This document shows positions 5,101 through 12,277 of a DNA stretch of 37,424 bases, piece by piece. The first letter of the stretch is position 1. Each line of letters opens with the position of its first letter. The position numbers and the translations under genes are program-made. The DNA lies in the NCBI GenBank assembly GCA_017634675.1, contig JAGBMX010000137.1:122118-159541 (forward strand), read 5' to 3'. Origin of the DNA: Selenomonadaceae bacterium (GTDB taxonomy: Bacteria > Bacillota > Negativicutes > Selenomonadales > Selenomonadaceae). Below the pieces are notes generated by a model, which made no database searches, was not told where the DNA came from, and worked only from the letters and a program-made list of their open reading frames with translations.

Positions 5101-6441
5101 CTATTGCAACAGCGTCAAGACATCAGATGCGTTATTATTAGACTGAGCTAGCATAACGGTTGAGGATTGAGCTAAGATTTTGTGCTTAGTATGATCAACC
5201 ATTTGAGAGGCAAAATCTATACCGCGAATGGTGTTATCGCTTGCTTCTACATTTTCACCCGCTATGGTAAGGTTCGCTTTAGTATAATCAAGACGATAAT
5301 GATACGAACCTAAGCGCGTCTGTTCATTAAGCGCTTTTTGAAGAGCGTTAGTTACGGTTTGAATTGCGGCATTGGCTTCCGTACGTGTTCCAATAGAAAG
5401 CGTATTTCCGTCTTTGCCACGTAATCCCAAAGCGTAACTTCTCATATCCGTCATGTACATTCTAAGATTTTGATTGGCCTTAGGTCCTGTATGAATTATT
5501 AAATCGTTGTCATCGGAAGCATCCTCTGCGCGAACGGTTTCAATAAAAGCGTTAAGAGTCTCCGTGGCGTTTTTCTTTATGTTGGCTTCAGAATCTAACA
5601 CCTTAACGGCAACACCGCCGATTTGACCCGATACCCCTTCTTCTTCGGCGCGAATCGTAATGGCATTTTTTCCGTCTACGGTGCTGACTTCAATTCCCGC
5701 TGTATCTTTGCCGACGGTCTTCCCGGATAGAATCTCAGTATCAAATGCCCTCCCATTAAGTTTGGTTTTTAGCATTTCTTCGGCTGTAGCGGCATGATTG
5801 GCGGCTTCTATAAGTTTCGTCATATTGTCTTTGCCAAGAACATTTGCCGTTACGGTTTCGCCTTGTTTAACATAAGAAATTTCAACGGTATCGTTTTCAA
5901 CAATGCCTAAATTCTCACCTTGTCGATTCTTCATATCGGTAAAAGTTGTAAGCTCCGTCGTATCCGACGAAAGCATATTGTTGGTAAGAGACGTCCTGGT
6001 TGCGCTCCCCTCGCGATTCTTCGAGCCGTCTGTCAAGGTTTTGCCGTTAAAAGTCACCCTTGCGTTATCGTCTATCTGATCGATATATTGGTTGTATTCT
6101 TTTTGAATGACAGCTCTATCCTCGTCGTCATTGGTATCGTTAGCCGCCTCTATGGCCTTAGACTGCATGATGCGCAAAATATCCACCGTATCTGCGACAG
6201 CGCCTTCTGCAACTTTTAAAAGACTGTTACCGTTTTGCGTATTTCTTACATCTTGGGCAAGATCGCGAATCATGCCCCGCATACGCTCCGAAATGGCGTA
6301 GCCTGACACATCATCCGCAGCACCGGTAACCCTTTGAGCAGAAGCCACTTTTTCGGAACTCTTTTGAAGCGCCGCTTGATTTTCGCTCATGGTTCTGTGC
6401 ATCAATATTGCTTCGTGATTATACCTGATTGTAAGCGACAT
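5101..6441 (-). CDS. fliC: Flagellin (divergent)
   Basis: Flagellin polymerises into the flagellar filament after type III export. The start is taken as ATG 6441 (MSLTIRYNHEAI), three codons inside the longest frame, with AAGGCGGTGG upstream; the protein is then 446 aa. The N-terminal D0/D1 helices are clear (AADDVSGYAISERMRG, NSLLKVAEGAV, DRAVIQKEYNQYIDQID, FNGKTLTDG). The C-terminal helix ends with TVMLAQSNNNASDVLTLL, matching the usual MLAQAN...LSLL pattern. The middle (about 150-330) is variable. The N-terminus departs from consensus: SAQRVTGAADDVSGY replaces the usual SGxRINSAADDAAGL. Divergent genes next door include a GT41 glycosyltransferase that could modify it. Confidence 0.93.
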   Translation of the reverse strand: MSLTIRYNHEAILMHRTMSENQAALQKSSEKVASAQRVTGAADDVSGYAISERMRGMIRDLAQDVRNTQNGNSLLKVAEGAVADTVDILRIMQSKAIEAANDTNDDEDRAVIQKEYNQYIDQIDDNARVTFNGKTLTDGSKNREGSATRTSLTNNMLSSDTTELTTFTDMKNRQGENLGIVENDTVEISYVKQGETVTANVLGKDNMTKLIEAANHAATAEEMLKTKLNGRAFDTEILSGKTVGKDTAGIEVSTVDGKNAITIRAEEEGVSGQIGGVAVKVLDSEANIKKNATETLNAFIETVRAEDASDDNDLIIHTGPKANQNLRMYMTDMRSYALGLRGKDGNTLSIGTRTEANAAIQTVTNALQKALNEQTRLGSYHYRLDYTKANLTIAGENVEASDNTIRGIDFASQMVDHTKHKILAQSSTVMLAQSNNNASDVLTLLQ

Positions 6442-6511
6442 ATAGTCCACCGCCTTTTCCTTGGCTTTTTTACTTCCTTGTTACAAATAAAAATATAACT
6501 CCTGTTTATAT

Positions 6512-6580: not shown

Positions 6581-6610
6581 TTGACAAATACACATGATAT
6601 GGGCTAAAAT
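6581..6610 (+). promoter_or_regulatory. Strong sigma-A promoter for the 6700-12277 block
   Basis: A consensus -35 TTGACA (6581-6586) and TAAAAT (6605-6610) are separated by 18 bases. Transcription would start near 6617, giving an 80-base leader before the ATG at 6700. It diverges from the flagellin promoter, and the two lie within about 100 bases of each other. Confidence 0.75.
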
Positions 6611-6699: not shown

Positions 6700-8553
6700 A
6701 TGATAACAGGTAAAAGAAAATTTGACGAACTTCCTGCAAACGAGCAACTTTTTCTTAGCAATAAATACGGATTTCAGCCTAAAAGCAGCGGTTACTCAAA
6801 ATATGCAATTAATTATGTGAGAAGTTTGACTGATTCGGAAAAAATCCTCTTTCAAAAAGGTAGTTTTCTGACTCCGCATTTTCTGACTCAGAGTCTTTAT
6901 AAACTAAAAGGCAGTTTACAACCTATACGTTTTAACAGAATTATAAAAGACCATGTGGATAAATACGAATGGCTTCGCACAAATTATATCCAAATAGAGG
7001 ATTCGGCTGTAGCTGTTGTTTTTGACGATAGAAAGGATATACCTTCAGCCGTTTTCAGAAGTTTGGTGACTATGGATGAAGATGAAATCAATGCCTCTCT
7101 TCGCACCATAATGGAGGCGGATATGCGCGAGGGGTTTGATATTGAAAGAGGACATTTGATTCGTTTTTCAATATATAAAACCAATGAAGACGAATACGCC
7201 GTATTGGTTACTATGGCGCATCTTATCTACCCATATGTGAATTTGTCGGAGCTTTTTCACGAGGCGTTGGGTTTCTCTGTTGAAAAAAGACAGGAACAAT
7301 CCGTTCCGATTTCTTATAATATGGCTGACCCGCAGGTTAAATCGTATTGGGAAAAAATACTTGAATCCCTCCCGAACTTGCCGAAAATTCCTTACGTCAA
7401 ACAAAATGTTTTGCCCCAAAAACCTGCGAAAGTTTATCGAAAAAAATTATCGAGCGATTTGACCTCGGAGCTTCTTAGAATATCAAAATCAAACAGAATG
7501 CTCTTGATGGCGATAATTGAGTCTGCGTGGAGCATTTTGCTTGCAGAATACAACAACATAAAGGATATTTACTTTTCCGCTGTGTTGCCGGATAAAAAAG
7601 TCAATGCAAAAGTGCCAAGCGTAAGGATAATGCCTGTCAGGATAAAGATGGACACATCTCTTACGGTCGAGCAGTTTGTTATGAATTCCTTTCAGCAGCT
7701 TTTGGTATCTAAGCCTTATAGTTCTCTGCAAATTAACGAACTTAAGGAGATATCCGGTATTAGCGGCAAATTATTCAATCATTTTCTCAGCTTTTACGAT
7801 TTTATGGAGGAAGAAAAGGAATACTCAAGCGTCCAGGGTTCTGATAACGGAGAGTTGGTACTGAGAAATTCCTGGGATTCTGGTGGCTCTAATCTAGGAC
7901 TTTATTTCCAATATGAAAACGGCAGCATTACCCTTACTCTTATATATAATCCAAACACTTTTGCCAATTCGGAAGAATCCTTTTTAGTGGAACGTTTCTT
8001 TCAGGTAATTTTGCAGATGATGACGGACTATAATCTTCCAATGTCCATGTTCTTGGCAAGATTAGCGAAACGTTTTGAGGCGGAAGAAAATAAAGAAACC
8101 GATATTCCTAATCTTGCGCTTTATTTAAACTACGAGATTACGGGAATAGAAATTTTCAAAGGTCTGCTTCATGGAGAAGACATCACTTATATTCAGAGAA
8201 ATACTGCGCTGAAGACCTTCTTTGAAGGGGATAGAATCAGCGGAAAAGAATTGAAAGACAGCTTTGTGTTTGTATTAAAAGGTCGAATTGCGAGGAATGT
8301 GGATACGGGAGACGGCTGGTATGTCACTCTTGATATTTTAAAAGACAGGTCATTCTTAAATGCAACTTCCTTTTTGGAAAAGCCGAGGCTACCTATTTCT
8401 CTTGAAGTTTTAACCGACGAGGCGCAGATTATTTTCATAAAAAAAGAGGCGGTTGAGAAAATTGCCCAGAAAGATTATAATTTATGTAAAAGCATAATAA
8501 CGTATGCTCTGGGCGAAATGGAAAAATATCAATATCTTTGGATTCAATCATGA
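6700..8553 (+). CDS. Degenerate condensation-domain protein fused to a cNMP-binding-like domain
   Basis: This 617-aa protein has a rare architecture. Residues about 55-470 resemble the NRPS condensation/acyltransferase fold: a start like SLTDSEKILFQKGSFLTPH, a FDIERGHLIRFSIYK strand typical of C domains, and the position of the HHxxxDG active site at 173-179. That site reads AHLIYPY, keeping one His but losing the first His, Asp and Gly, so peptide-bond chemistry is unlikely. Residues about 495-610 resemble a Crp-type cyclic-nucleotide-binding beta-roll (FVFVLKGRIARN, then a FLNATSFLEKPRL segment) without a helix-turn-helix and without the usual phosphate-binding Arg. No adenylation or carrier domain is visible nearby. 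It heads the STAS/ABC/GT41 block. A role as a sensor or scaffold is inference. Confidence 0.7.
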   Translation: MITGKRKFDELPANEQLFLSNKYGFQPKSSGYSKYAINYVRSLTDSEKILFQKGSFLTPHFLTQSLYKLKGSLQPIRFNRIIKDHVDKYEWLRTNYIQIEDSAVAVVFDDRKDIPSAVFRSLVTMDEDEINASLRTIMEADMREGFDIERGHLIRFSIYKTNEDEYAVLVTMAHLIYPYVNLSELFHEALGFSVEKRQEQSVPISYNMADPQVKSYWEKILESLPNLPKIPYVKQNVLPQKPAKVYRKKLSSDLTSELLRISKSNRMLLMAIIESAWSILLAEYNNIKDIYFSAVLPDKKVNAKVPSVRIMPVRIKMDTSLTVEQFVMNSFQQLLVSKPYSSLQINELKEISGISGKLFNHFLSFYDFMEEEKEYSSVQGSDNGELVLRNSWDSGGSNLGLYFQYENGSITLTLIYNPNTFANSEESFLVERFFQVILQMMTDYNLPMSMFLARLAKRFEAEENKETDIPNLALYLNYEITGIEIFKGLLHGEDITYIQRNTALKTFFEGDRISGKELKDSFVFVLKGRIARNVDTGDGWYVTLDILKDRSFLNATSFLEKPRLPISLEVLTDEAQIIFIKKEAVEKIAQKDYNLCKSIITYALGEMEKYQYLWIQS

Positions 8554-8568
8554 TAAAGGAGAATTTTT

Positions 8569-8868
8569 ATGGAAATTACAAAAGAACAAACAGGAACAAA
8601 TTTAGTGATTTTTTTGGAAGGTCGTTTGGACGCAACCAGCGCTCCGCAGCTTGACAAGGAAATCAGTTCGTCTCTTGACGGCGTGACGGATTTGGTGTTC
8701 GATTTTGCAAAACTATCTTATATCGCTTCAGCCGGTTTAAGGAGTTTGTTGGTTGCGCAAAAACGTATGAAGAAACAGGGAAGCATGAAGCTTATCCACG
8801 TAAGTAAGGACGTATGCGACGTTTTGGAAATGACGGGCTTTATTGATTTTCTTTCAATAGAAAATTGA
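8569..8868 (+). CDS. STAS-domain anti-sigma-factor-antagonist-like protein
   Basis: This 99-aa single STAS domain belongs to the SpoIIAA/RsbV type. The strand pattern NLVIFLEGRLDATSAP at the N-terminus and YIASAGLRSLLVAQKRM match the family. Ser54 aligns with the serine that an anti-sigma kinase phosphorylates in partner-switching systems. The ATG has a good AAAGGAG site and begins 15 bases after the preceding gene, so the two are co-transcribed. No cognate kinase, phosphatase or sigma factor is in the window, so its partner must be elsewhere, or it may act on the fused upstream protein or the transporter. A perfect hairpin follows at once. Confidence 0.9.
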   Translation: MEITKEQTGTNLVIFLEGRLDATSAPQLDKEISSSLDGVTDLVFDFAKLSYIASAGLRSLLVAQKRMKKQGSMKLIHVSKDVCDVLEMTGFIDFLSIEN

Positions 8869-8869
8869 C

Positions 8870-8906
8870 GTTAAAAATCCCTTCGCTTTGCGAAGGGATT
8901 TTTAAC
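8870..8906 (+). terminator. Perfect 17-bp hairpin between the STAS and ABC transporter genes
   Basis: Two 17-base arms (8870-8886 and 8890-8906) are perfectly complementary with a TTT loop. The 3' arm contains ATTTTT but then AAC, so it could end transcription in either direction or only reduce readthrough. It begins two bases after the STAS stop codon and lies inside the apparent gene block. It probably lowers expression of the transporter and glycosyltransferase relative to the first two genes. Confidence 0.8.
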
Positions 8907-8933
8907 GATTAAAACAACCGAATGGAGAATAAT

Positions 8934-10643
8934 ATGAAACTTGGTTTTTTAAAAGCTACATGGTATCTTTTTAAGGGGTATTGGGGTTCGGAGGAAAAGT
9001 GGAAAGCCAGAGGACTTTTGGCGGCTGTTATCGCATTGAACTTAGCTTCTGTGTATTTGCTTGTTGAAATTAATACATGGTACAACGAATTTTACAATGC
9101 TCTGCAAAATTACGAAGAAGGGCTTTTTTGGCCTTTGGTGGGAAAATTTACGGCGCTCGCTTTCATTTATATTTTTATAGCCGTTTACGCTATATATTTA
9201 TGTCAGATGTTGCAATTAAAATGGCGTACTTGGATGACCGACCGTTATTTGAAGGATTGGCTTAAAGATAACGTCTATTATAGATTGCAGGTGCTAAGAA
9301 GCGATACGGATAACCCGGATCAGCGTATTTCCGAGGATATAAACCAGTTTGTAAGTCTTACCCTATCCCTTATGATAGGGTTTATAAAACAGTTGACAAC
9401 TCTTGCGGCATTTAGTGTAGTGCTGTGGAATCTTTCAGGGATTTTTACGCTGCCCGTGGGAAGCTACGAATTCCAAATTCACGGTTATATGTTCTGGTTC
9501 TCTCTCGCTTATTCAATTATAGGCACGTATTTCGTGCATATCGTGGGTAGAAAACTTATAGCGCTCAATTTTGACCAACAGAAATATGAGGCAGATTTCC
9601 GTTTCAGCATGATGAGAGTGAGGGAAAACAGCGAAAGCATTGCGTTTTACGGCGGTGAAAATTCAGAATTCGGGATATTTAAGGAACGCTTTTCAAATGT
9701 AATATCCAATTTTTGGCAACTTATGAAAAAAACGAAATTGTTGAATTTCTATGTCAACGGTTACGCTCAACTTGCAGTTATTGTGCCGCTGATTTTGGCG
9801 TCGCCCCAGTATTTTTCGGGGGCTATGACCTTAGGTGGGCTTATGCAGACCATTTCCGCATTCGGTAGGGTTCAGGACGCTCTTTCATACTTCGTTGACT
9901 CATATAATACCATCGCCCAACTTGTCGCCGTTGTACAGCGTCTTTTTGGCTTTAAAGAGCATATAACGGAAGTTTCGGATATTGAAAAGAATATAGTCGA
10001 AAACGAGAACACGACGGGTAATTTGGAAATTGTAAATTTAAACGTAAAACTTCCCAATGACAAGGTGTTGCTTAAAAATTGCAATTTGACTTTAAAAGAG
10101 GGGCAAAGGATTTTGGTAATAGGAAAATCCGGCGCAGGCAAGAGTACTTTTTTAAGGATGTTAGCTGGAATTTGGCCGTACGGTGACGGCGAGATTATTC
10201 ACCCGGCAAGTGAAAGTTTGATGTTTTTACCTCAAAAGCCGTATTTACCGCTTGGCAGCTTAAAACGGGCAATTTGCTATCCAAACGTCGATGAAAATAT
10301 ACCTAACGCTGAAGAACTTTTGGATATGGTAAAACTTTCGGATTTAAAGAATTCCTTAGATAAAACGGAAGATTGGAGCCGAATCCTCTCCTTAGGAGAG
10401 CAACAGAGATTAGCGTTTTTGAGGGCGCTTGTAGCAAAACCCAAGTGGCTATTTTTGGATGAGGCAACTTCAGCTTTAGACGAGCCGTTAGAACGTGAAA
10501 TGTACGAACTTTTGAGAAAAGAACTGCCCAAAACCGGAATAATCAGCGTTGGGCATAGAAGCACATTAAGAGAAGTACACGATGTAGAGCTGCGGTTGAC
10601 AGGAGATGGAGCTTACGAAGAAGCGGAGATTGAACGACGATGA
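8934..10643 (+). CDS. SbmA/BacA/YddA-type ABC transporter (fused permease-ATPase)
   Basis: This fused exporter half-molecule of 569 aa starts at ATG 8934; the earlier ATG at 8922 overlaps the GGAG ribosome site. The membrane part (about 1-330) has five or six hydrophobic segments and the family-typical EINTWYNEFYNALQNYE after the first helix, characteristic of the ABC_membrane_2/SbmA-BacA group linked to peptide or cobalamin-like transport. The ATPase part has Walker A GKSGAGKST, a divergent signature LSLGEQQR instead of LSGGQ, Walker B WLFLDEATSALDE and the switch His in SVGHRS. Its stop overlaps the next gene as ATGA. The substrate is unknown; peptides or modified peptides are the family precedent. 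Confidence 0.9.
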   Translation: MKLGFLKATWYLFKGYWGSEEKWKARGLLAAVIALNLASVYLLVEINTWYNEFYNALQNYEEGLFWPLVGKFTALAFIYIFIAVYAIYLCQMLQLKWRTWMTDRYLKDWLKDNVYYRLQVLRSDTDNPDQRISEDINQFVSLTLSLMIGFIKQLTTLAAFSVVLWNLSGIFTLPVGSYEFQIHGYMFWFSLAYSIIGTYFVHIVGRKLIALNFDQQKYEADFRFSMMRVRENSESIAFYGGENSEFGIFKERFSNVISNFWQLMKKTKLLNFYVNGYAQLAVIVPLILASPQYFSGAMTLGGLMQTISAFGRVQDALSYFVDSYNTIAQLVAVVQRLFGFKEHITEVSDIEKNIVENENTTGNLEIVNLNVKLPNDKVLLKNCNLTLKEGQRILVIGKSGAGKSTFLRMLAGIWPYGDGEIIHPASESLMFLPQKPYLPLGSLKRAICYPNVDENIPNAEELLDMVKLSDLKNSLDKTEDWSRILSLGEQQRLAFLRALVAKPKWLFLDEATSALDEPLEREMYELLRKELPKTGIISVGHRSTLREVHDVELRLTGDGAYEEAEIERR

Positions 10644-12277
10644 CTAAATCTGACTGGCTCGAAAACTACGAAACCTCTAAGGCTTTATGGGAAAATGGAC
10701 GCTACGACGAGGCAAAAAATGAGCTTGAAAGCTTTTGGGATAAAACAGGCGCAAAAACTTTGCCTCAAATGACGCTTTACGCCTATATTCTCCGTTCTAA
10801 GAAGTTGTATATATCTGAAATCAAGCATATTGAAGAAACGTTAGAGCTTTTTAAAGGGTCTGATGAAAAGCGTTTTTTGGCGATTTTGTATAGTCTTTTG
10901 GGGGAAGCCTATCAAAGAATTGGAAAAACTATCGAGGCGGCGAAAATTTTTCTAATTGCCGCCGAAATAGAGCCGAACGCAGAAAAAAAATTTGCAGAAA
11001 TCAGCAACGCTATTTTTGCAAGAGGGGCTTCGGATTTTTCTCCCGAAGAAATGGAAGTTTTCTATAAAAAATATCGCGATACTTGGAAATGTTATATTTC
11101 TTTAAAAACCCCTTCGCCGCCTTCGGTAACGGAGGGGTTTGCCTTTTCTGAAAGTGGAAGTGCCCAAAGTGCTGAGGGGATTAAAAAAATCCGCGTCGGC
11201 TATATGTCGCCTGATTTACACGCTCACCCGGTTGCAGATTTTTCCGCCTCCTTGTTTTTTGATTATGACAGAGAAAAATTTGAAATCTATGTTTACGATT
11301 TGGGGAGCGTAGAAGATGAAGTTACACAAGCGTTAAAACAGGGTATCAACGTATGGCGCAATGTGTATGGGTTATCGTTTGATAAAATTGCGCAAATAAT
11401 AAAGACTGACGAAATTGACATTTTGGTGGATTTGTCAGGTCACACGGCAAAAAACGCTTTGCCTGTTTTTATGCACCGAGCTGCTCCTATACAATTATCG
11501 GGAATAGGTTACGTGTTAAGTACGGGGCTTTATGAAACAGACGGATTTTTAACCGATATACACGCCTCGTCCGAAGAAAAATCCGAGTATTTTGTCGAAA
11601 AGCTTATAAGACTTCCTCATACGCATTTCTGCTATACCCCGTTCGCAACATTTCCCGCAGTAAAAAATTCTCCTTGTATAAAAAATAATTATATAACTTT
11701 CGGCTCCTTCAATAACTTTTCAAAAGTTACGGACGAATGTTTGATATTGTGGAATAAAATTTTAAAAAACAACAAAAATTTTAAGCTCATATTAAAACAT
11801 TCTCTGTTTGACAGCAAGGAAGGGTTGGAGTACACAAAGAACAGAATTAATTCCTTGGGGATTTCGACGGAGCGGATTGAATTCAGGGGTTTTAGCGAGA
11901 ATTATCTTGAGGAGTACAACGACGTTGACATAGCATTGGACACATTCCCCTATACAGGAGGCGCAACTTCTCTTGAAGCTTTGATGATGGGGGTTCCGCT
12001 GGTCACTCTTTGCGGGGTTCGTCATGGTTCTCGCTTTGGCGTAAGTTTTTTGGAAAATCTGGATTTAAATGAGCTAATAGCAAAAGATAAAAATTCCTAT
12101 GTAGAAATTGCTTCTTACATTGCAAGCGACAAAGAGTTGCTCTTAGCTTTAAGGCAAAATCTTCGGCAGATGATGTTAAATTCGCCGCTGATGGATAGAA
12201 AAAGCTACATGAAGGATATTGAGAGGATTTTTCAATATAGCTACGAATCCAAAATATGCTCAAAGTTGCCTTTGTAG
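10640..12277 (+). CDS. TPR-containing GT41 glycosyltransferase (OGT/SPINDLY-like)
   Basis: The 545-aa protein has helical TPR-like repeats (about 10-150), a short linker (157-182) and a GT41 catalytic region (183-540). GT41 marks are RVGYMSPDLHAHPVADF with His194/His196, ILVDLSGHT, FGSFNNFSKVTDE (UDP-sugar site), and DTFPYTGGATSLEALMMGVP. Such enzymes attach GlcNAc or other sugars to Ser/Thr or Asn of proteins in the cytoplasm. Start and stop of neighbours overlap (ATGA) with the ABC exporter, so synthesis is coupled. Flagellin encoded 4 kb away is a plausible target. The linker is encoded by a repeat-like insertion. The 3' end overlaps convergent recG by 37 bases. Confidence 0.88.
   Translation: MTKSDWLENYETSKALWENGRYDEAKNELESFWDKTGAKTLPQMTLYAYILRSKKLYISEIKHIEETLELFKGSDEKRFLAILYSLLGEAYQRIGKTIEAAKIFLIAAEIEPNAEKKFAEISNAIFARGASDFSPEEMEVFYKKYRDTWKCYISLKTPSPPSVTEGFAFSESGSAQSAEGIKKIRVGYMSPDLHAHPVADFSASLFFDYDREKFEIYVYDLGSVEDEVTQALKQGINVWRNVYGLSFDKIAQIIKTDEIDILVDLSGHTAKNALPVFMHRAAPIQLSGIGYVLSTGLYETDGFLTDIHASSEEKSEYFVEKLIRLPHTHFCYTPFATFPAVKNSPCIKNNYITFGSFNNFSKVTDECLILWNKILKNNKNFKLILKHSLFDSKEGLEYTKNRINSLGISTERIEFRGFSENYLEEYNDVDIALDTFPYTGGATSLEALMMGVPLVTLCGVRHGSRFGVSFLENLDLNELIAKDKNSYVEIASYIASDKELLLALRQNLRQMMLNSPLMDRKSYMKDIERIFQYSYESKICSKLPL
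11106..11183 (+). repeat. Repeat-like element inserted in-frame in the GT41 gene
   Basis: The DNA for residues about 157-182 has features of an intergenic palindromic repeat. AAACCCCT (11106-11113) pairs with AGGGGTTT (11133-11140), and a second half around AAAGTGGAAGTGCCC with AAAGTGCTGAGGGG looks like the element at 1553-1600. It is rich in Ser/Pro/Gly/Ala codons, unlike the flanking domains, and keeps the reading frame. It replaces nothing conserved. Confidence 0.5.

Follow-up and report, generated by a model that had tools for sequence, protein, structure and literature searches.

The window, a stretch of 37,424 nucleotides from a Selenomonadaceae bacterium, holds a block of four plus-strand genes encoding a condensation-cNMP protein (COND), a single-domain STAS protein, an ABC transporter half and a GT41 glycosyltransferase, with a flagellin gene diverging from them (Table 1). 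The open reading frames, coordinates and domains given in the original prediction are all real, and both the 15-nt spacing between COND and STAS and the ATGA overlap between the ABC and GT41 genes are present in the sequence. That prediction had read the block as a single surface-modification or peptide-export system, transcribed from one strong promoter and possibly acting on the flagellin. The four genes are not one system, however, and the conserved unit is COND together with a partner-switching module.

Table 1 Features of the locus, with positions in the window and the basis of each assignment.
Feature	Position	Strand	Basis
Condensation-cNMP protein (COND), core component, 617 aa	6700..8553	+	Predicted model, pLDDT 85.4, pTM 0.83
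Condensation-fold domain, residues 52-449 of COND	6853..8046	+	Pfam, fold comparison, motif count
CRP/FNR-type cNMP-binding-like roll, residues 467-617 of COND	8098..8550	+	Family profile, fold
Single-domain STAS protein, RsbV/SpoIIAA-like, 99 aa	8569..8868	+	TIGR00377 above cutoff; conserved Ser54 at phospho-acceptor position
Intrinsic-terminator-like hairpin, 18-bp stem, at the COND-STAS/ABC-GT41 boundary	8869..8907	.	Folding energy
ABCD/Rv1819c-type ABC transporter half, 573 aa, ABC_membrane_2 and ABC_tran	8922..10643	+	Pfam, structural relative
TPR-GT41 SPINDLY-like protein glycosyltransferase, 545 aa	10640..12277	+	Pfam
Flagellin, divergent from COND (context only)	5101..6450	-	Profile match
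Sigma-70-like promoter candidate TTGACA-N18-TAAAAT, upstream of COND	6581..6610	+	Consensus match

Transcription units, ABC transporter and glycosyltransferase

The candidate promoter matches the -35 and -10 consensus at 11 of 12 positions and is the best in the region, where promoter-like sites occur at chance level (20 observed, 19.4 expected); in a low-identity alignment it was not conserved in the upstream DNA of congeners. The hairpin that parts STAS from the ABC gene has a perfect stem (-28.2 kcal/mol, z -8.7) with a GC core followed by ATTTTT, and hairpins also lie downstream of STAS in three relatives. Given the chance-level sites and the hairpin, transcription of four genes from one strong promoter was not confirmed. 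Because of the hairpin boundary and their independent distribution, the ABC and GT41 genes probably form a transcription unit separate from COND-STAS.

The ABC protein had been called an SbmA-type exporter, and it does match SbmA_BacA in Pfam (E 8.7e-45), in addition to ABC_membrane_2 (E 5.9e-61) and ABC_tran. The name is nevertheless imprecise, as SbmA/BacA is proton-driven and has no nucleotide-binding domain, whereas ABC_tran is fused in the window protein, whose closest solved relative is the ABCD-type Rv1819c (6tqe, E 1e-103). Its gene is a core gene, present in 37 of 37 Selenomonadaceae tested with or without COND, and no conserved neighbourhood was seen in about 19 further loci. The neighbouring protein is, as predicted, a putative protein glycosyltransferase with a strong GT41 catalytic domain (Pfam, E 5.7e-40) and weak TPR repeats below the Pfam cutoffs. 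GT41 genes are multicopy and often near flagellar genes: in many genera flagellin is about 15 kb away or less, and in a congener a GT41 gene adjoins fliK-flgD.

The pairing of ABC with GT41 recurs in each of the genus's three genomes, and all four genes are contiguous only in the genome of origin (G000) and one congener (G001). A genome survey of the four-gene order, the refuting check set by the original prediction, went against it for ABC and GT41, which are not conserved neighbours of COND-STAS, and did not do so for the COND-STAS pair. A single system acting on the flagellin would accord with the two contiguous cases, with G291 and G207, where the ABC gene likewise comes after STAS or next to COND, respectively, and with the recurrent proximity of GT41 to flagellin. 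The hairpin, the placement of COND-STAS and ABC-GT41 on different contigs in G002 and the presence of the ABC gene regardless of COND speak against a four-gene operon, which was rejected, and make such a system most improbable. A link to flagellin is plausible for GT41 alone, given its proximity; for COND, presence was not significantly associated with that of flagellin in the 37 Selenomonadaceae (p = 0.24) and one adjacency was seen besides the window (in G021), and flagellin was rejected as its partner.

Folds and motifs of the condensation-cNMP protein

Pfam recognises a Condensation domain in COND (E 1.3e-29), and in the predicted structure this region forms a complete CAT-like two-lobe fold. 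The best structural match is SgcC5, a free-standing condensation enzyme (Z 24.1), tied with several NRPS domains; with SrfA-C, TycB and SgcC5 the protein shares the complete condensation fold (Z 22-24, about 400 residues). Unlike these, COND has lost HHxxxDG, carries a C-terminal CNB roll and has no neighbouring adenylation or carrier domain in the window. The motif is intact in none of the 86 COND-family proteins, Gln replacing the catalytic His in 54 rows. The window protein reads AHLIYPY here (A173-H174-L-I-Y-P-Y) and so keeps the second motif His, H174, a position that is His in 6 of the 86 rows; some residual catalysis is therefore conceivable. Neither carrier nor adenylation domains were found among the scanned window proteins flanking the block, in line with the original prediction, and the query used gave no NRPS-like multidomain match in the genome of origin. 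Only at locus L193 was a carrier protein present: a distant homologue with PHITFDG belongs to an NRPS-like cluster there and has a two-carrier protein as its neighbour.

For the roll, the cNMP_binding match of the single protein falls under the Pfam cutoff (E 1.7e-4), the family profile matched CRP-type chains (E 4e-10), and the predicted fold (pLDDT 93) resembles CRP/FNR sensor domains (Z 16.6), including a long C-helix; profile and fold together make the assignment secure. It differs from CRP/FNR in having no DNA-binding HTH domain and in the phosphate-binding-cassette Arg, which is not conserved at its position (S/A/L/V in most rows); in the COND family, Lys or Arg sits one residue before the canonical column. 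A similarity of the CNB region to encapsulin 2B was dropped as too weak (E 0.021). Motif loss, family profile and predicted folds agree on a condensation fold that is mostly dead and is joined to a cNMP-like roll, as had been proposed, and structure prediction of the 617-aa protein returned both parts. COND is probably an NRPS-derived pseudoenzyme.

Association with partner-switching genes

The COND family is almost confined to Selenomonadaceae, and its genes there show linkage to a partner-switching module made up of STAS, PP2C phosphatase and an RsbW-like HATPase. Four genera have complete operons, in three gene orders, namely HATPase-STAS-PP2C-COND (g21), PP2C-STAS-HATPase-COND (g3, g7) and PP2C-HATPase-COND-STAS (g17; L149, L152), while partial operons read HATPase-COND-STAS (g27), PP2C-STAS-COND (g28, g13) or COND-STAS (g1, g2, g17). 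The HATPase_c_2 kinase gene adjoins COND in g3, g7, g17, g21 and g27. Of 84 COND loci, 34, spread over 11 of 16 genera, have a same-strand partner gene no more than 3.6 kb away, and 50 have no adjoining partner gene, including 24 of 26 loci in g13; on the tree, the linkage involves at least six separate changes. The module is found in rumen Selenomonadaceae.

In the 37 Selenomonadaceae, COND and the kinase were both present in 15 genomes, both absent in 19 and discordant in three (Fisher p = 2e-7, which overstates the evidence, as rows within one genus are not independent). Gene counts were made by tblastn, antisense ORFs having masked some genes in the ORF calls (L037, L040, L043), and many of the surveyed genomes are incomplete assemblies, the genome of origin being 85% complete. 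The search for co-occurring RsbU/RsbW genes was thus positive by both co-occurrence and shared operons, and we regard the genomic linkage of COND to the partner switch as well supported. Our literature search, which covered open-access papers and left most subscription journals outside, found no paper on condensation with STAS, condensation with cNMP or partner switching in Negativicutes.

The STAS protein of the window (Pfam, E 1.7e-14) has a Ser54 that is invariant in a seven-row alignment, and it appears to be the phosphorylatable protein originally proposed, a canonical single-domain antagonist. The block itself contains neither kinase nor phosphatase, as had been stated, but the genome has both in an 868-aa fusion on another contig (C54), dCache_1-HAMP-SpoIIE (PP2C)-HATPase_c_2, with a SpoIIE match of E 3.7e-45 in Pfam. 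Its kinase domain groups with the COND-operon kinases (100/99), and C87, the other RsbW-like kinase tested from this genome, groups elsewhere. Because of this orthology, the fusion is likely to be paired with the COND-STAS of the window across contigs. No SigB/F/G sigma factor scored above the curated TIGR02980 cutoff in 25 Selenomonadaceae; the cutoff was passed by 9 of 16 other members of the class.

CNB domains are also found in Pycsar effectors. An anti-phage defence role was rejected, as PADLOC returned nothing for COND, STAS, GT41, the C54 fusion or the kinase, and only low-scoring ATPase-type matches for the ABC protein.

Possible role of COND in partner switching

We favour, with a probability of roughly 0.55, a reading in which COND and STAS belong together to a partner-switching module of the non-sigma kind, COND replacing the sigma factor as partner and the C54 fusion supplying the rest. 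A periplasmic ligand sensed by dCache would set PP2C activity, the HATPase domain would phosphorylate Ser54 of STAS and PP2C would dephosphorylate it, and the phosphorylation state would determine the partner to which STAS or the kinase is bound. COND would then use its condensation cleft and CRP-like roll to serve as an effector or as a platform for binding; that it binds directly, and with what direction of control and output, we infer. COND may be a target or a co-regulator of the switch. Since it is linked to a sigma-type switch and no such sigma factor was detected, it is possibly the unrecognised target. That the target is an NRPS condensation/CRP-like-roll pseudoenzyme, neither sigma factor nor cyclase, in a lineage that retained the switch without SigB/F/G, is a tentative proposal, at somewhat less than even odds.

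COND could instead be the input, its roll or cleft binding a metabolite such as an acyl- or phosphopantetheine-bearing ligand and signalling to kinase and STAS, which would act on a separate target. The CRP-type sensor fold suits this, and genomic linkage is silent on direction, but a dedicated PP2C with dCache or a membrane sensor already provides input, the cNMP-binding Arg is not conserved and the operons examined revealed no further output, so that we consider it unlikely. That COND is an active transferase of acyl or aminoacyl groups, with the partner switch gating its activity, is a distinctly poorer prospect: the missing HHxxxDG motif, the prevalent Gln and the lack of NRPS-like multidomain matches to the query in the genome stand against the complete fold, the retained H174, the similarity to SgcC5 and the NRPS-like setting of the distant homologue.

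It is also conceivable, and very unlikely in our view, that STAS and its kinase target the flagellar anti-sigma factor FlgM and thereby FliA, with COND as an accessory. Such a role would follow the precedent of Pseudomonas HsbA, which binds FlgM when unphosphorylated (PMC6482189), and some of the COND copies have flagellin (L036) or fliL-fliM (L043) as neighbours. Against it, COND presence has no significant association with flagellin, and no flgM was identified beside the operons, where no profile search for this gene was made.

The favoured partner-switching module resembles RsbU-RsbV-RsbW and SpoIIAA-SpoIIAB in its STAS protein with a conserved phospho-acceptor Ser, HATPase_c_2 kinase and SpoIIE-type PP2C, and differs in that COND is linked to it in place of SigB/F/G. 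In SiaABCD of P. aeruginosa, the PP2C-like phosphatase SiaA and the kinase SiaB set the phosphorylation of SiaC (T68), and the system includes the diguanylate cyclase SiaD, not a sigma factor (PMC7647112). A phosphatase and a kinase thus act on an antagonist-like protein without a sigma factor there as well (PMC7647112), whereas in the COND module COND itself is the candidate effector, phosphorylation is presumed to fall on the canonical Ser of a single-domain STAS protein, and kinase and phosphatase can be fused. In Vibrio fischeri, the part of the source used here describes the STAS protein SypA, which acts downstream, as controlled by the kinase/PP2C protein SypE, as proposed for the COND module; SypE has an additional receiver domain, that part describes no condensation protein, and it presents the downstream partner of SypA as still sought (PMC10120452).

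Partner switches that lack a matching sigma factor pose a known puzzle, because what they control is often unknown. Here, comparative genomics points to a specific protein as the candidate partner, one that can be tested and is conserved in many Selenomonadaceae genera. If the reading is true, an NRPS condensation domain would have been repurposed for regulation, from a peptide-synthesis enzyme to a regulatory binding partner.

Genomic company of the condensation-cNMP protein

The 617-aa condensation-cNMP protein is very probably (probability about 0.9) linked with a partner switch, comprising a STAS protein, an RsbW-like HATPase_c_2 kinase and an RsbU-like SpoIIE phosphatase (PP2C). When 380 genomes of the class were searched with a profile, full-length members of its family proved almost confined to Selenomonadaceae, with full-length homologues in three other genomes (G037, G048 and G304); those of G048 include a tandem pair. 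RsbU-like and RsbW-like genes were found adjoining when the flanking DNA was read; Pfam identified the former as phosphatases of dCache/HAMP/SpoIIE or 5TMR/SpoIIE type and the latter as HATPase_c_2 kinases. In a tblastn census of 84 loci, a STAS, HATPase or PP2C gene was linked (within 3.6 kb, same strand) at 34, representing 11/16 genera and several gene orders. STAS was adjacent at 31/84 loci vs approximately 1% expected by chance, which we estimated from the at most nine STAS homologues per 2-3 Mb genome. No partner gene was adjacent at 24 of the 26 loci in genus g13, and on the family tree the linkage label has to change six times or more along starred branches, which indicates recurrent gain or loss of linkage and not one shared inheritance.

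Across 37 Selenomonadaceae, the protein and the kinase were both present in 15, both absent in 19 and discordant in 3 (Fisher p = 2e-7), and the original prediction's suggestion to look for co-occurring RsbU/RsbW genes was also borne out for PP2C (p = 1.3e-6), these p values being too small owing to shared ancestry, with genomes spanning ~30 genera; for flagellin p was 0.24. The kinase and phosphatase noted as missing from the block are present elsewhere in the same genome, fused in an 868-aa dCache-HAMP-PP2C-HATPase_c_2 protein on contig C54, and congener G002 has a similar fusion. Because the C54 kinase domain appears orthologous to the kinases of condensation-cNMP operons (grouping support 100/99), we infer that this fusion pairs with the window STAS; the other RsbW-like kinase, on C87, groups elsewhere and adjoins its own STAS.

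Elsewhere, directly upstream of PP2C-HATPase-COND-STAS genes (COND, condensation-cNMP), lies a gene for a MATE transporter that carries a fused RsbW-like HATPase_c_2 domain, and a ~210-aa gene following STAS in genus g17 has no significant Pfam match and an N-terminus that, judged by eye, is faintly HATPase-like.

Coordinates of the features discussed (window positions where no locus or contig is named)
Feature	Genome	Position	Strand
Flagellin	G000 (window)	5101-6450	-
Condensation-cNMP protein	G000 (window)	6700-8553	+
STAS	G000 (window)	8569-8868	+
Hairpin	G000 (window)	8869-8907	
ABC transporter	G000 (window)	8922-10643	+
TPR-GT41 glycosyltransferase	G000 (window)	10640-12277	+
PP2C-HATPase fusion, C54	G000	L105:8719-11325	
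Intact paralogue, C82	G000	L059:3974-5968	
Paralogue fragment (L003), query residues 8-340	G000	C107:310-1317	
Paralogue fragment (L004), query residues 352-451	G000	C138:888-1187	
Tandem condensation-cNMP pair	G048	L054:8081-11870	
MATE-HATPase_c_2 fusion	G258	L152:2302-4044	
~210-aa gene after STAS	g17	L152:8906-9523	
~210-aa gene after STAS	g17	L038:11536-12198	
Condensation-cNMP protein in NRPS-like cluster	G304	L193:6258-8342	

Fold, active sites and origin

All four predicted open reading frames were found, with their domains, at the positions given for them. The N-terminal condensation domain is significant from the single sequence (E 1.3e-29) and the C-terminal cNMP-like roll sub-threshold (E 1.7e-4), and both were recovered by family profile and predicted structure. 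The 25-row profile matched NRPS condensation domains (E 7e-59) and, at positions 482-612, CRP-type regulators (E 4e-10) in the PDB. The AlphaFold model of the complete protein has pLDDT 85.4 and pTM 0.83, and that of the C-terminal part by itself pLDDT 93.4; VIA-align placed residues to ~465 with condensation enzymes (best SgcC5, Z 24.1, rmsd 5.3 A over 396 residues) and the C-terminal part with CRP/FNR proteins (best Z 16.6, rmsd 2.0 A over 132 residues). A DNA-binding domain is absent, because the chain stops after the C-helix.

None of 86 family proteins carries a complete HHxxxDG motif; the catalytic His column holds Gln in 54 and His in six, among them the window protein (AHLIYPY, H174), and the column where CNB domains have their canonical phosphate-binding Arg does not conserve it. 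One remote homologue, in G304 and thus from beyond the bacterial family, retains PHITFDG and has both domains over Pfam cutoffs. It adjoins an NRPS-like gene and a gene whose product has two carrier domains joined by a long Gln/Met-rich repeat, which points to a possible NRPS origin.

The window's genome also encodes an intact paralogue of 665-670 aa, whose motif SHLIMDF keeps His and Asp and which adjoins no partner-switch gene. Another paralogue is present as two fragments, each at the end of a contig and directly against an IS630-like transposase, suggesting disruption by insertion; its homologues in congeners G001 and G002 are uninterrupted and adjoin a DUF2225 gene.

Extent of the transcription unit

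The block had been read as one four-gene unit for surface modification or peptide export, perhaps acting on flagellin. Against a single unit stand a hairpin between STAS and the ABC gene, the separate contigs of the two gene pairs in G002, where fliK and flgD follow GT41, and the occurrence of the ABC protein in 37/37 Selenomonadaceae searched, with or without the condensation-cNMP protein, and in most of the class. The hairpin, occurring once within the window, has a perfect 18-bp stem (CCCTTCGC-TTT-GCGAAGGG, then ATTTTT; -28.2 kcal/mol, z -8.7), and stable hairpins also lie 3' of STAS in G001, G002 and G291. Judged from sequence, COND-STAS and ABC-GT41 are thus best read as two transcription units, and a four-gene surface-modification system is highly improbable. 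Since the order COND-STAS-ABC recurs in G291 (g27) and ABC-COND-COND occurs in G207 (g13), a functional connection to the ABC gene may exist, yet is not the rule. The predicted ABC exporter stood as far as its transporter domains; its closest solved relative is Rv1819c.

GT41 genes, often arrayed, lie within ~15 kb of window-type flagellin in many genera (G005, G007, G010, G017-G022, G030, G031, G033, G035 and G052), and this recurrent proximity suggests that GT41 enzymes glycosylate flagellin as a trait of the family.

A candidate partner switch

SigB/F/G exceeded the curated cutoff in 0/25 Selenomonadaceae, vs 9/16 other class members and one of the controls, and the switch is therefore expected to have a partner that is not a classical sigma factor. 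The recurrent neighbour of the partner-switch genes is the condensation-cNMP protein, and we give about even odds to its being their direct partner or effector. In such a switch, dCache would supply the input, PP2C and HATPase would oppose each other on Ser54 of STAS, and an exchange of partners would free or capture the condensation-cNMP protein. This would resemble SiaABCD (PMC7647112) and SypA/SypE (PMC10120452), and would differ from sigma-B control. Searches of the open literature, which leave most subscription journals outside their coverage, returned no description of such a system.
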